Source: an uncultured bacterium (GTDB lineage: Bacteria > Bacillota > Clostridia > Lachnospirales > Lachnospiraceae). Taken from it: 64,000 nt of DNA. The stretch lies in the NCBI GenBank assembly GCA_947381965.1, contig CANCXX010000012.1:32642-96641 (forward strand), written 5' to 3'. Under the pieces are notes generated by a model. It did not search any database and had not been told where the DNA came from. It saw nothing but the letters and a program-made list of their open reading frames with translations. Positions 19,097 to 23,976 of the stretch are shown piece by piece (the stretch's first letter is position 1; every line of letters starts with the position of its first letter). The position numbers and the translations under genes were made by a program.

Positions 19097-19267
19097 TTAT
19101 TCTTCAGAAATAGCACCTACAGGGCATCCGCCTGCGCAGGAGCCACAGCTGATGCAAGTATCAGGATTGATTTCGAATTTTCCGTCTCCCTCGCTGATAG
19201 CGCCTACGGGACACTGCCCAGCACAAGCGCCACAAGAAATACATGCGTCACTAATTACATATGCCAT
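19097..19267 (-). CDS. 2[4Fe-4S] clostridial ferredoxin
   Basis: A 56-residue protein starting MAYVISDACISCGACAG. Two CxxCxxCxxxCP motifs (CISCGACAGQCP at about 9-20 and CISCGSCAGGCP at 38-49) bind two [4Fe-4S] clusters. It is a soluble low-potential electron carrier for pyruvate:ferredoxin oxidoreductase, hydrogenase or Rnf. RBS AAGGAGG seven bases before the ATG on the minus strand. Monocistronic between its promoter region and the terminator 19061-19084. It is missed by plus-strand ORF calling because overlapping frames are longer. Confidence 0.96.
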   Translation of the reverse strand: MAYVISDACISCGACAGQCPVGAISEGDGKFEINPDTCISCGSCAGGCPVGAISEE

Positions 19268-19512: not shown

Positions 19513-20271
19513 TTATCCCCGTGTATTCTCTTCACGCCGTCTGCGGATGCCTTCTAAGATCACAGCCTTTTTTTCCACCACTTTGCTTTTATCCATAGCG
19601 GGTACGCCTTCCAGCTTGTAAGGAATATTCAGTTTTTTGTATTTGGACTCTCCCATTGTATGGTAGGGAAGTACGTCAAGGGCCTTTAAGTTGGTAAACT
19701 GGCCGATAAAGTACCCAAGTTTAAACAGATAGTCGTCATCATCCGTAAGGCCGGGAACAACCACATGACGAATCCACATATCTACATGTCTTTTGTTGAG
19801 GTAAGCGGCAAAGGCAAGAATGCCGTCGTTAGGCTGCTCTGTCAATTCCTTATGTTTTTCAGGGTCTATGTGTTTGATATCCAGCATAACCAAATCGGTA
19901 AGCGCCATCAGTTTGTCAAGCTTTTCGATAAATGGTTTATTGTCAGGCTTAAAGGCAATGCCGGAAGAGTCGATGCAGGTATGCACATTATTTTTTTTCG
20001 CAATGGTAAAAAAGTCAATCAGGAAATCCACCTGCATTAATGGTTCCCCTCCGGTAACGGTAATTCCGCCGTTTTTATAAAAGTCTTCATTTCTCTTATA
20101 TTGTTCAAAAATTTCTTCAGGTTCCATCATGGTACCGCCAGTCATAGCCCAGGTATCGGGATTATGACAGTACGCACAGCGCATAGGGCATCCCTGCACA
20201 AATACGACAAAACGTGTTCCAGGGCCATCTACGGTGCCGAAACTTTCTAATGAATGAATTCTCCCTTGCAT
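19513..20271 (-). CDS. pflA: pyruvate formate-lyase activating enzyme
   Basis: 252 residues, a radical SAM enzyme. The cluster motif is CPMRCAYC with Cys28, Cys32 and Cys35, preceded by GTVDGPGTRFVVF. The GGEPL motif for SAM binding is present (about residue 75). It uses S-adenosylmethionine to abstract hydrogen from the radical glycine of pyruvate formate-lyase. Here that glycine is on a separate polypeptide (21423-21665). GGGAG stands before the ATG. It lies about 1.1 kb downstream of the pfl genes on the same strand, separated by two plus-strand genes, so it probably has its own transcript. Confidence 0.97.
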   Translation of the reverse strand: MQGRIHSLESFGTVDGPGTRFVVFVQGCPMRCAYCHNPDTWAMTGGTMMEPEEIFEQYKRNEDFYKNGGITVTGGEPLMQVDFLIDFFTIAKKNNVHTCIDSSGIAFKPDNKPFIEKLDKLMALTDLVMLDIKHIDPEKHKELTEQPNDGILAFAAYLNKRHVDMWIRHVVVPGLTDDDDYLFKLGYFIGQFTNLKALDVLPYHTMGESKYKKLNIPYKLEGVPAMDKSKVVEKKAVILEGIRRRREENTRG

Positions 20272-20446: not shown

Positions 20447-20580
20447 GTTATTACAGCAGACAGAAATGTATATACACAACTGCCAAGTATATTTTTAAAG
20501 TTTTAGGTGTAACTGAAAAAGAAAGGATGATTAAGTACAGGCTTGGAGATAAGGCAGAGCCTGCACGGAAAAGAGGGAAA

Positions 20581-21135
20581 ATGAGTGAAGGTAAAATTGG
20601 AAAAATTCAAAAGAGCAGTAAAATAGCATTTGCTATAGCTAGAGTTTTGAAAATTATTTTTATTGTAACATCAGTAATCGCGATATTGGCGGGAATATTT
20701 CTGATAGGTTTTAAGGGGCTGATTAACAGTGAAATTGACAGGGCGGTGGCGAGAGGGGAATTTACAATAGAAGAAATTATGCCGGTAGTGGATGAGGAGG
20801 CAGGATTTGAGATGTTTATAGCAGATCAGATAATGAAAAACGGTTACTTTTCAGAAACAATGGGAGCTTATCTGATAACAATAGGCGTTCGGTTGATATG
20901 TCTGGCAGTTGTGGTGCACTTTATCGGTAAGGTTTTCAGGGAAATTGAAGAAAGCTATTCGCCATTTAAACCTCAAATTGTTAAAAGCATTAAGGTAGCA
21001 TTTATTTTAATTACGCTTTTATCTCTTGAAAACAGCCTGCTTATTGGTATTATGGTGGGATTTTCCCTTTGGAGTGTGGTTAATATTTTTAAATATGGAT
21101 GTGAGCTGCAGAAAATGTCGGATGAAACTTTATAG
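20581..21135 (+). CDS. DUF2975 family membrane protein
   Basis: About 184 residues with four predicted membrane helices (about 22-45, 95-118, 135-155, 160-180 in this numbering), the plan of DUF2975 proteins. Such proteins are commonly encoded beside a small Xre regulator of the YozG type, as here. The start at 20581 has GAGGG four bases upstream; an in-frame ATG at 20527 is possible but its AAAGG is almost adjacent. Function unknown. Confidence 0.75.
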   Translation: MSEGKIGKIQKSSKIAFAIARVLKIIFIVTSVIAILAGIFLIGFKGLINSEIDRAVARGEFTIEEIMPVVDEEAGFEMFIADQIMKNGYFSETMGAYLITIGVRLICLAVVVHFIGKVFREIEESYSPFKPQIVKSIKVAFILITLLSLENSLLIGIMVGFSLWSVVNIFKYGCELQKMSDETL

Positions 21136-21164: not shown

Positions 21165-21386
21165 TTGGCAATCATATTGAGGTTAGACCGCATGATGGCG
21201 GATAGAAAGATCTCTTTAAATGAACTGGCACAGAAGGTAGGTATTGCAAATGTAAATTTATCCAATATCAAAACAGGAAAGGTAAGCGCTATCCGGTTTT
21301 CCACATTAAATGCGATTTGTGATGTGCTGGATTGTCAGCCAGGTGATTTACTGGAATTTCAAAGAGATGAAAAGAAGGAAACATAA
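21165..21386 (+). CDS. YozG-like Xre/Cro-type transcription regulator
   Basis: 73 residues, almost entirely one helix-turn-helix of the HTH_26 type (ILRLDRMMADRKISLNELAQ, then NLSNIKTGKVSAIRFSTL and CDVLDCQPGDLLEF). The start is TTG at 21165 behind AGGAGG. It probably controls its own operon with the DUF2975 gene, perhaps through the palindrome at 20392-20412. Coding ends six bases before a strong bidirectional terminator. Confidence 0.88.
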   Translation: MAIILRLDRMMADRKISLNELAQKVGIANVNLSNIKTGKVSAIRFSTLNAICDVLDCQPGDLLEFQRDEKKET

Positions 21387-21422: not shown

Positions 21423-21665
21423 TTATACTGACTCGTGGAATGTACGGGAAATAACGTCAGCCTGCTGTTCGGGTGTAAGCTTAATGAAGTTAACAGCATA
21501 TCCGGAAACACGGATTGTAAGCTGAGGATAATTCTCCGGATGCTTCTGTGCATCTAATAACATATCTCTGTTTAAAACGTTTACATTGAGATGATGTCCG
21601 CCTTTTGTTGCGTAGCCATCTAATAATGATACTAAGTTATCTACCTGTGCTGTACTTGATGCCAT
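21423..21665 (-). CDS. separate glycyl-radical domain of pyruvate formate-lyase
   Basis: 80 residues equal to the C-terminal part of ordinary pyruvate formate-lyase: [28 protein letters not shown], and the radical loop RVSGYAVNF with the radical glycine at Gly55. GrcA/YfiD-type proteins have a similar domain and rescue oxygen-cleaved PFL, but here the main PFL chain lacks this domain, so this protein should be an essential subunit rather than a spare. It lies 18 nt after a 67-residue relative and is the last gene of the pfl operon, with a terminator at 21392-21415. Confidence 0.93.
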
Positions 21666-21683: not shown

Positions 21684-21887
21684 TTAATGAAAATCATCCA
21701 GCCCATCTTCCAGGGTAGGTACGCTGCACGCCAAGGGAGTTCTGGAGCAGTCCGTACATCCCATGGTCTGAACGTTTTTCGATTCATCTTTTGTTTCATC
21801 GTAGTCCACGTTTACGTGTCCTACACCCATTGCCATGCCGGAATCCAGCATTTTTACAAGATCATCGATCATTTTTTTATCATCCAT
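21684..21887 (-). CDS. small Cys-containing relative of the glycyl-radical domain
   Basis: 67 residues between the two parts of pyruvate formate-lyase. Residues 7-29 (IDDLVKMLDS...GHVNVDY) align with the start of the glycyl-radical domain next door ([10 protein letters not shown]...HHLNVNV), 9 of 23 identical. The radical loop is absent. Instead it has CTDCSRTPLAC (Cys44, Cys47, Cys54) and an acidic end LEDGLDDFH. RBS AGGAGG on the minus strand. It may be a structural or cluster-binding partner of the split enzyme, comparable in size to the small Fe-S subunits of other glycyl radical enzymes; this is inference. No described family was recognised. Confidence 0.8.
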   Translation of the reverse strand: MDDKKMIDDLVKMLDSGMAMGVGHVNVDYDETKDESKNVQTMGCTDCSRTPLACSVPTLEDGLDDFH

Positions 21888-21936
21888 TGCATTATACCTC
21901 CTGAAAGTGGAACATTAAATTTATTTTACTTATGTT

Positions 21937-23976
21937 TTATTTGTTTAAGTCAACTTCAATATCGCCTGCGAAAACCTGATCCTCTTTACCAAGTGCGCCA
22001 GGAATAATGGTGAAGGTATTGGAAATACCATCCTGTGCATCATTGAAAGGAAGCTTGGATACGGAAGACAAGGAAGCTACAGCGCCATGGGTGTCACGAC
22101 CGTGCATGGGGTTAGCGCCAGGTGCAAAAGGCTGTCCTTTCTTACGTCCGTCAGGTGTGTTACCTGTTGCCTTACCATAGGTTACATTAGAGGTAATGGT
22201 AAGGATAGATGTTGTAGGAATACCATTTCTGTAGGTGTGGTGTCTTCTGATTGCTGTCATAAACTTGTGTACAACGTCCTGTGCAATGCTGTCAACACGG
22301 TCATCATCATTACCATATTTAGGGAATTCCCCTGTTGTCTTAAAGTCTACGATAATGCCGTCTTCATCTCTGACAACTTCTACCTTAGCGTACTTAATAG
22401 CAGATAAGGAGTCAGCTACGATGGAAAGCCCTGCAACACCTGTTGCAAAATAACGCTTAACGTCTCTGTCATGAAGCGCCATTTCAGCTCTCTCATAGCA
22501 GTATTTGTCGTGCATATAATGAATAATATTCAGAGTATTTACATATACATCTGCCTGCCATTCCATCATGTCAATAAACTTGCTGTATACATCGTCATAA
22601 TCAAGAACATCACCTGCAACAGGACGGTATTTAGGTCCAACCTGTTTCTTGGTAACTTCGTCTACACCGCCGTTTAATGCGTAAAGCAGACATTTTGCAA
22701 GGTTAGCTCTTGCTCCGAAGAACTGCATTTCTTTACCAATAACCATGGAAGATACGCAGCATGCGATACCATAGTCATCGCCGTGTGTTACTCTCATAAG
22801 GTCGTCGTTTTCATACTGGATAGAAGAGGTCTGGATAGACATCTTAGCACAGTATTTCTTCCAGTTTTCAGGAAGTCTTGTGGACCAGAGAACAGTCAAG
22901 TTGGGTTCAGGGCTGGGTCCTAAGTTGGTTAATGTGTGAAGGTAACGGAAACTCATCTTTGTTACCAGAGGACGTCCGTCAACGCCAACACCGCCTAAGG
23001 ATTCAGTTACCCATACAGGATCGCCGGCAAAAATCTGGTTATATTCAGGTGTACGTGCGAATTTTACGCAACGCAGCTTCATGATGAAGTGGTCTACAAA
23101 TTCCTGGATTTCCTGCTCGGTAAATGTTCCGTTTGCAAGGTCTCTTTCTGCATAGCAGTCAAGGAAGGTGGAAGTACGTCCAAGAGACATAGCAGCGCCG
23201 TTTTGTTCTTTTACTGAACATAAATATCCGAAGTAAGTAGCCTGGATTGCTTCTTTTACATTGGAAGCGGGCTTGGAAATATCACAGCCATAGGAAGCAG
23301 CCATTTCTTTCATCATTTTAAGAGCAACCATCTGCTCGGAAAGCTCTTCACGAAGACGGATAATGTCATCTGTCATAACACGTCCTGTGGAGTCCTTCTG
23401 TGCCATTTTATCCTCAATCAGTCTGTCAATACCATACAGAGCAACACGTCTGTAGTCGCCGATAATACGTCCGCGTCCGTAAGCATCCGGAAGACCTGTG
23501 ATGATATGAGCGGAACGGCATGCTCTCATTTCTGCATTGTAAGCATCAAAGCATCCTGCATTGTGTGTTTTTCTGTGGGTTGAGAAGAATTCACTGATTT
23601 CAGGATCTACTTCATACCCATTGTCAGCACATGCTTTTTCAGCCATTCTGATACCGCCGTAAGGCTGCAGGGAACGTTTGAAAGGCTTATCTGTCTGGAA
23701 ACCAACAATTGTTTCCTTGGATTTGTCTAAGTAACCAGGACCATGGGATGTGATAGTGGATACAACCTTGGTATCCATATCAAGAACACCGCCTGCTTCA
23801 CGTTCCTGTTTCTGCAGATCAAGAACCATCTGCCATAAATCCTTTGTGTTTTGTGTAGCTTCTGCTAAGAAGGACTCATCACCTTCATAAAGGTGATAAT
23901 TTCTCTGAATGAAATCACGTACGTTAACTTCATTTTCCCACTTGCCGCCTACAAAATCTTTCCATTCTGATCTCAT
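21937..23976 (-). CDS. pflB: pyruvate formate-lyase catalytic chain lacking the glycyl-radical domain
   Basis: 679 residues against about 740-760 in ordinary PFL. All the barrel is present, including the adjacent catalytic cysteines Cys406-Cys407 in GIACCVSSM, and it ends at GDIEVDLNK where other PFLs continue into the glycyl-radical domain. That missing part is encoded by 21423-21665. The enzyme converts pyruvate and CoA to acetyl-CoA and formate. The stop is genuine in this sequence and two further genes with own RBS follow, so this is a split enzyme rather than a simple frameshift. A good promoter lies at 24047-24076. Confidence 0.95.

Follow-up and report, generated by a model that had tools for sequence, protein, structure and literature searches.

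PFL is central to fermentation in the gut, and oxygen cleaves it at its glycyl radical; many gut Lachnospiraceae keep this vulnerable radical domain as a separate part. The radical glycine is needed beside an active-site cysteine pair, C418/C419 in E. coli numbering (PMC12338860, in part), and a cleaved E. coli PFL can take the spare domain YfiD/GrcA (excerpts of PMC8683613). Residues 696-733 of E. coli PFL, which remain on the enzyme after oxygen cleavage, are described in the same excerpts as needed for good YfiD/GrcA binding and activation, with 32-fold less radical formed without them. In ribonucleotide reductases, both class I and monomeric class II, the disulfide of the active site is believed to be re-reduced by a cysteine pair on a flexible C-terminal tail (PMC5704485, in part). 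In benzylsuccinate synthase the small subunits adopt a HiPIP-like fold that holds [4Fe-4S] clusters (PMC12590467, in part).

In the sample studied here, split PFLs nearly always come with a second, unnamed element, a cysteine tail that is present either in cis on the large chain or in trans on a 67-residue protein, p67. Among the papers listed by our open-access literature searches there was no account of a split PFL, of its stand-alone radical domain GrcA3, or of the cysteine tail.

The split pfl locus and p67

The window, that is, the whole 64,000-nucleotide stretch of DNA that was analyzed, encodes in order a PFL large chain, p67, GrcA3, two plus-strand ORFs, PflA, and a ferredoxin. The large chain (21937..23976, minus strand, 679 residues) covers positions 2-665 of the 744 in TIGR01255 and stops ahead of the glycyl-radical loop; its active-site pair, Cys406-Cys407 (C418/C419 of E. 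coli), is encoded at 22756..22761 (minus strand) and is invariant in an alignment of 12 full-length and 83 split PFLs. GrcA3 (21423..21665, minus strand, 80 residues) has the RVSGYA loop, matches PF01228 at 82.2 bits, and clears the NF038360 cut-off only just (159.5 against 158 bits); its radical residue, assigned by homology, is Gly55. Judged from these genes, the locus is a split PFL, with a large chain that lacks the radical loop and a stand-alone radical domain in the same operon.

PflA, the PFL-activating radical SAM enzyme (19513..20271, minus strand; TIGR02493, 298.1 bits against a cut-off of 231.75), is the first same-strand gene after GrcA3, of those included in the search, in 134 of 157 loci. 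The two-cluster ferredoxin (19097..19267, minus strand; two PF00037 stretches) is often found downstream of p67 loci. Two genes on the opposite strand separate GrcA3 from PflA in the window: a membrane-protein-like ORF (20527-21135), which has no Pfam match with an E value of 0.01 or better, and an HTH gene of the Cro/C1 type (21165-21386; PF13443).

The gene for p67 lies on the minus strand at 21684..21887, stop codon included, as supported by the ORF translation, its homologues, and their conservation; the preliminary description named no strand, and the plus-strand reading of the same interval gives no such protein. Inspection of the sequence places a Shine-Dalgarno element, AGGAGGT (21896..21902, minus strand), so that it ends 8 nt upstream of the start codon. 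The product, 67 residues followed by the stop, is MDDKKMIDDLVKMLDSGMAMGVGHVNVDYDETKDESKNVQTMGCTDCSRTPLACSVPTLEDGLDDFH. By HHalign, residues 1-32 (21792..21887, minus strand) resemble the opening helix and strand of the glycyl-radical domain, and residues 40-67 (21687..21770, minus strand) form the cysteine tail, with C44, C47, and C54 followed by SVPTLxxGLDD. The segment LACSVPTL resembles, by eye, the PFL active-site loop IACCVSSM, a likeness that enters none of the arguments below.

Several comparisons point to the origin of the N-terminal half. HHalign aligned p67 residues 3-32 with GrcA3 residues 4-33 (probability 96.6, E = 6.2e-10), the GrcA3 profile NF038360 matched 60 of 68 p67 members at E up to 1 (best E = 8.6e-07), and the p67 profile A1 gave weak matches to long PFL frames where their radical domain begins (one genome, E from 1e-5 to 0.01). 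The Pfam Gly_radical profile matched only 7 of the 68 (best E = 0.01). Because the GrcA3-profile, HHalign, and long-frame matches all fall in this half, we read it as a copy of the opening portion of the radical domain, with common descent limited to residues 3-32; its helix and strand are presumed from the radical domain. Like GrcA3 and GrcA/YfiD (NF038360, TIGR04365), with which its first ~30 residues are homologous, p67 is a small separate protein adjoining PFL, but it has neither the RVSGYA loop nor a recognizable second half and carries the cysteine tail instead. The preliminary description had reported a 67-residue protein with C44, C47, and C54 (CxxC-x6-C) inside a split pfl operon, similar at its N terminus to the adjoining glycyl-radical domain (9 of 23 identical) and perhaps derived from it, with the radical loop replaced by a cysteine segment. 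The sequence and its neighbors agree with all of this: our count by eye again gave 9 of 23 for residues 7-29 against GrcA3 residues 8-30, and the RVSGY loop with its radical glycine is absent from p67. No described family had been recognized at that stage, and Pfam and NCBIfam searches likewise found no family of p67's own. The window protein matched 0 Pfam families at E up to 10 and reached 13 bits against NF038360, far from the cut-off of 158 (E = 0.085, residues 4-28), while a profile search of PDB sequences with p67 gave nothing relevant, with no HiPIP-like cluster subunit among the matches listed.

p67 is a real gene and not a chance ORF, because one scan of genome contigs gave 406 relatives (80 of which were retained), 77 of 299 Lachnospiraceae genomes have it, and the order PFL-p67-GrcA3 is kept in 145 of 157 loci. 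These are the homologues beside other split pfl genes for which the preliminary description had called. Seven of the remaining 12 loci are without a long PFL match (at least 100 aligned residues), the available DNA starting close upstream of p67; one is without GrcA3, the DNA stretch ending ahead of it; and four are orphan p67 genes. More members occur in other families of the same order and class. Seven stretches of viral contigs fit the sequence pattern, and none encodes a p67 relative. The median dN/dS is 0.084 (143 random pairs among 84 members of 67 residues), lowest in the cysteine half (0.03) and highest in the linker (0.39). The missing radical loop and the two members that are truncated before C54 (L155 and L157) could be taken as marks of a decaying radical-domain duplicate, or of a functionless chance ORF, but we give such explanations next to no credence against this purifying signature, this spread among genomes, and the retention of p67 even where it has moved away from pfl.

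Cysteines in trans and in cis

All three cysteines are present in 44 of 70 non-redundant p67 members, and the exact CxxC-x6-C spacing is found in 43. C44 has been lost in 22 members, C47 in 2, and C54 in the 2 truncated ones (L155:7050-7238 and L157:7066-7305), which end just past the CxxC (GCTDCAK and GCTTCSQ) with the pair kept. All 70 nevertheless have at least two cysteines in the tail half, as do all 157 when redundant members are counted, and since two are retained throughout though single ones vanish, the feature common to the family is a cysteine pair. The conservation of three cysteines on which the preliminary description had set store thus survives for a pair but not for all three. 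A three-cysteine metal site as a rule of the family was considered and was rejected after the 70 members had been aligned. In alignment A1, whose 68 rows leave out the two truncated proteins, G23, C54, and P57 are invariant. H24, which sits in the part derived from the radical domain, is nearly so.

In 112 of 155 p67 sequences, H24 and C54 are 30 residues apart (range 29 to 36); the set is redundant, and the stretch between them crosses the variable linker. The corresponding distance from His to the radical Gly is 30 residues in 174 of 174 distinct GrcA3 proteins. By this equality C54 could occupy the place where the radical Gly would lie, next to the active-site cysteine pair.

Where p67 is missing, the PFL large chain usually carries cysteines of its own. 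We chose by eye 38 genomes of the family sample in which a stand-alone GrcA3 was among the matches listed and the p67 searches were empty; in 36 of these the large chain of the split PFL ends in a cysteine tail, with two cysteines in 26 and three in 10 (for example, ...DLDRIEDCKDLACNIPNIEDSIDNE and ...DLDCSNGACASPTLFEGLD). The two exceptions are G130, whose PFL tail is without a cysteine pair and which has an orphan p67 elsewhere (L245, below the earlier strict threshold), and G288, which has neither p67 nor a cysteine tail. At another locus of G130 (L205), a PflA-like gene separates GrcA3 from the PFL large chain, with p67 elsewhere. Comparison of tails across loci gave the converse picture for PFLs beside p67: the tail has no cysteine in the window (21940..21984, minus strand), in 73 of 73 family-sample loci, or in 80 of 80 loci retained from the scan that gave 406 relatives. 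Three genomes (G282, G297, and G002; L222-L224) have p67 away from pfl and a split PFL without a cysteine pair, L222 having a single cysteine; in G006, which is 67% complete, no PFL lies near p67 and there is no GrcA3 in the genome. No genome with both p67 and a cis cysteine tail was seen among the PFLs examined, namely, those beside p67 or, for three orphans, beside GrcA3. Twenty p67 genomes have a second GrcA3, which was inspected as well; no PFL adjoins that copy, and hence these genomes showed no additional split PFL with a cis tail.

The two kinds of tail also resemble each other in sequence. The p67 profile matches the ends of PFL large chains in genomes without p67 (G092 at E = 3.9e-5, G403 and G596 at E = 0.003 and 0.006), and an HMM of the p67 cysteine part scores at least 10 bits on 26 of 44 cis tails, at least 8 bits on 0 of 880 shuffled tails, and at least 5 bits on 0 of 73 PFL tails from p67 genomes. 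Some of this likeness may have arisen by convergence on a pair of cysteines close to the terminus, because 18 of the 44 cis tails score below 10 bits and 12 do not outscore all 20 of their own shuffles, as the other 32 do. The 44 include 8 of 12 split PFLs without p67 from a class sample; loci L225 and L226 were chosen partly because their tails match the p67 profile, and the large chain of L229 is broken into two frames. Cysteine spacing in the 44 ranges from CC to Cx6C, with Cx4C commonest (16 of 44) and CxCC in 7. By eye, the cis tails show no recurrent His and no helix and strand like those of the radical domain; they carry the cysteine part only, so the element they have in common with p67 is the cysteine pair.

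The cis/trans rule is strong in Lachnospiraceae and weaker beyond. From the class sample we examined 17 split PFLs, of which 12 lack p67 and 5 have it. None of the 17 enters the count of 36 of 38, and 4 of the 12 have no cysteine pair (L232, L233, L240, and L241). With these four outside the family and G288 inside it, the cysteine module is not indispensable.

Phylogenies of the PFL core, from which rows with too-short PFL were omitted, bear on how often the arrangement has changed. An IQ-TREE phylogeny of 109 PFL cores, with the tail excluded, gave 12 changes between trans and cis, at least 4 to 5 of them forced by well-supported branches; a FastTree phylogeny of 124 rows, in which G130 still bore the label "neither" because its orphan p67 was found later, gave 13, of which 6 to 7 are forced in the same way. 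As read from these trees, the two states have switched several times. In independent pairs differing in p67, the tail never goes the same way in either tree: 4 of 4 IQ-TREE pairs were opposite in 197 of 200 pairings, and of 7 FastTree pairs an average of 4.8 were opposite and 2.2 showed no difference. Sign tests on the supported independent pairs did not reach 0.05 (median p = 0.0625 and 0.125). We consider it very probable that a single PFL element exists in two forms, p67 and the cis tail; if p67 is the trans version of the latter, the tail most likely cooperates with the large chain.

The preliminary description had compared p67 to the small Fe-S subunits of benzylsuccinate synthase and 4-hydroxyphenylacetate decarboxylase, which are likewise small cysteine-bearing partners of glycyl radical enzymes. 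In its favor, the beta subunit of benzylsuccinate synthase holds a [4Fe-4S] cluster and promotes the formation of a thiyl radical (PMC12590467, in part). In p67 the CxxC-x6-C motif of most close relatives (43 of 70), the near-invariant H24, and the CxCC of 7 of 44 cis tails would suit a metal or Fe-S accessory subunit. However, p67 differs from those subunits in deriving partly from the radical domain, to which H24 itself belongs, and C44 is absent from 22 and C47 from 2 of the 70 members. The small Fe-S subunits have four conserved protein ligands per cluster; the 70 p67 members share the cysteine pair alone. In the family sample, 26 of 36 cis tails have only two cysteines; across the 44 cis tails the spacings leave from 0 to 6 residues between cysteines, and no His recurs by eye. 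With only a pair in common, variable spacing, and apparent replacement of p67 by a PFL tail with two or three cysteines (CC to Cx6C), the metal or Fe-S reading is not supported, and we regard it as unlikely.

A possible dithiol role at the radical pocket

We favor a dithiol role over a metal cluster, since two cysteines in 70 of 70 p67 proteins and a cis spacing that runs from CC to Cx6C suit a dithiol better than a fixed metal site. That a loosely spaced cysteine pair can reside either on PFL itself or on a partial copy of the radical domain suggests that it acts through its thiols in the radical pocket. Our working proposal, the likeliest of those considered although we hold it at somewhat less than even confidence, is that p67 delivers a redox-active cysteine pair in trans for thiol-disulfide chemistry at the PFL active site. 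The PFL of this bacterium consists of separate parts, the large chain bearing the active-site cysteine pair and GrcA3 being an exchangeable radical domain. As a degenerate copy of that domain, p67 keeps the first helix and strand, the expected seat of the domain on PFL, and has exchanged the radical loop for a presumably flexible C-terminal cysteine tail. When GrcA3 is absent or damaged by oxygen, this tail would enter the open radical pocket and re-reduce or shield C406/C407 until a fresh GrcA3 has been installed with the help of PflA.

Such an action would be like that of the C-terminal cysteine pair that serves the active site of ribonucleotide reductase. A pair near the C terminus is present in 70 of 70 p67 proteins and in 36 of 38 sampled PFL tails, and the tail of E. 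coli NrdA is Cx4C, which is also the commonest cis spacing here. The enzyme is a different one, however, and the pair, whose role here is putative, can sit on a separate protein; the normal PFL cycle is not known to involve disulfide formation. If the tail is redox active, a further radical enzyme beside ribonucleotide reductase would be served by a dithiol tail. The presence of the element on two different genes makes simple swap tests of its function feasible.

The cysteines of the PFL core offer candidate partners. The only ones invariant in 95 aligned PFLs (12 full-length and 83 split) are the active-site pair C406/C407 and C376, and none is invariant in the split PFLs yet absent from the full-length ones. 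C429 (0.98 and 1.0 in split PFLs versus 0.58 in the 12 full-length) and C116 (0.94 and 1.0 versus 0.5) could be alternative partners of the tail because they are near-invariant in split PFLs. Four core columns are split-specific, at positions 244, 250, 296, and 587 of the window PFL. AlphaFold2 models of in-frame fusions had mean pLDDT values of 47.8 and 41.3, too low for use on docking or fold.

One of the 12 full-length PFLs (L255, G096; 774 residues) has a cysteine-rich linker, VTCGCEEVTCAVDA, between the core and the attached radical domain. It looks like a cis-tail PFL re-fused to its own GrcA3, and it indicates that a cysteine tail can coexist with a covalently fixed radical domain. The linker is not predicted by a model in which the tail acts in an empty pocket and would fit it poorly, unless it is a relic of the re-fusion. 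L255 also weighs on another explanation, that p67 is a competitive plug in the site of the radical domain. Shutting out GrcA3, it would keep PFL inactive or protect the vacant site with no redox turnover, and its cysteines would lock it in place through a mixed disulfide. An N-terminal half that reproduces the opening portion of the radical domain but not the radical loop, and a C54 that falls by distance at the position of the radical Gly in 112 of 155 p67 proteins, would both suit a plug. Yet cis tails are widespread too and have no docking part, and in L255 linker and radical domain are present on one chain. We think a plug improbable.

A recognition or loading element that involves no redox chemistry is the alternative to which we give the most room, although we still judge it on the unlikely side. 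Here p67 or the cis tail would mark the large chain for docking of GrcA3 or for radical installation by PflA, standing in for a segment of E. coli PFL. In our own alignment, split PFLs end ahead of what we take to be the equivalent of E. coli residues 696-733, and the N-terminal half of p67 resembles the beginning of that segment. The segment aids binding and activation of YfiD/GrcA (PMC8683613, in part), and the p67 gene lies between those of PFL and GrcA3 in 145 of 157 loci. The segment overlaps the region of the radical domain that the N-terminal half of p67 resembles; unlike p67, it is part of the PFL chain and has no cysteine tail. Against this explanation, the cis tails are without the helix and strand, which leaves the cysteine pair as the common element, and a plain recognition peptide has no obvious need for two cysteines. 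For the redox proposal, docking of p67 on PFL, contact of its tail with C406/C407, and thiol-disulfide action there are the steps that we infer.

Related small proteins and second GrcA3 copies

Two more families of small proteins came to light. The first, with an N-terminal half like that of p67, ends in YH[HL]GRCD[VI]GSP[FW]A and is encoded in the window genome (L221:2453-2647, contig C24) and at L242, L243, L246, L247, and L249-L253; the 3 of its 10 members that were scanned had no Pfam or NCBIfam match above cut-off, and by eye the genes have no common neighbors. The second, likewise similar to p67 in its N-terminal half, has [KE]CCxxYG followed by LDMY[TS]D (L159:6993-7244, L160:1190-1426, L161:6993-7274, L244:1479-1769, and L248:1551-1772); it occurs in five genomes, all of which also have p67, and the 3 of 5 that were scanned matched no family. 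A broader and rather doubtful picture would place p67 in a wider class of radical-domain-derived adaptors with these two families (YHHGRCDVGSP and KCCxxYGR) and would make PFL a glycyl-radical lyase with a dithiol tail like that of ribonucleotide reductase, shuttling between the enzyme chain and a trans-acting degenerate radical domain.

A second stand-alone GrcA3 with no adjoining PFL is found in the window genome (L220:3059-3295, G000 contig C23) and in 20 other p67 genomes (L268-L287). These copies are perhaps true spare parts. In the window genome the second GrcA3 adjoins a Crp/FNR-like regulator, so named by eye.
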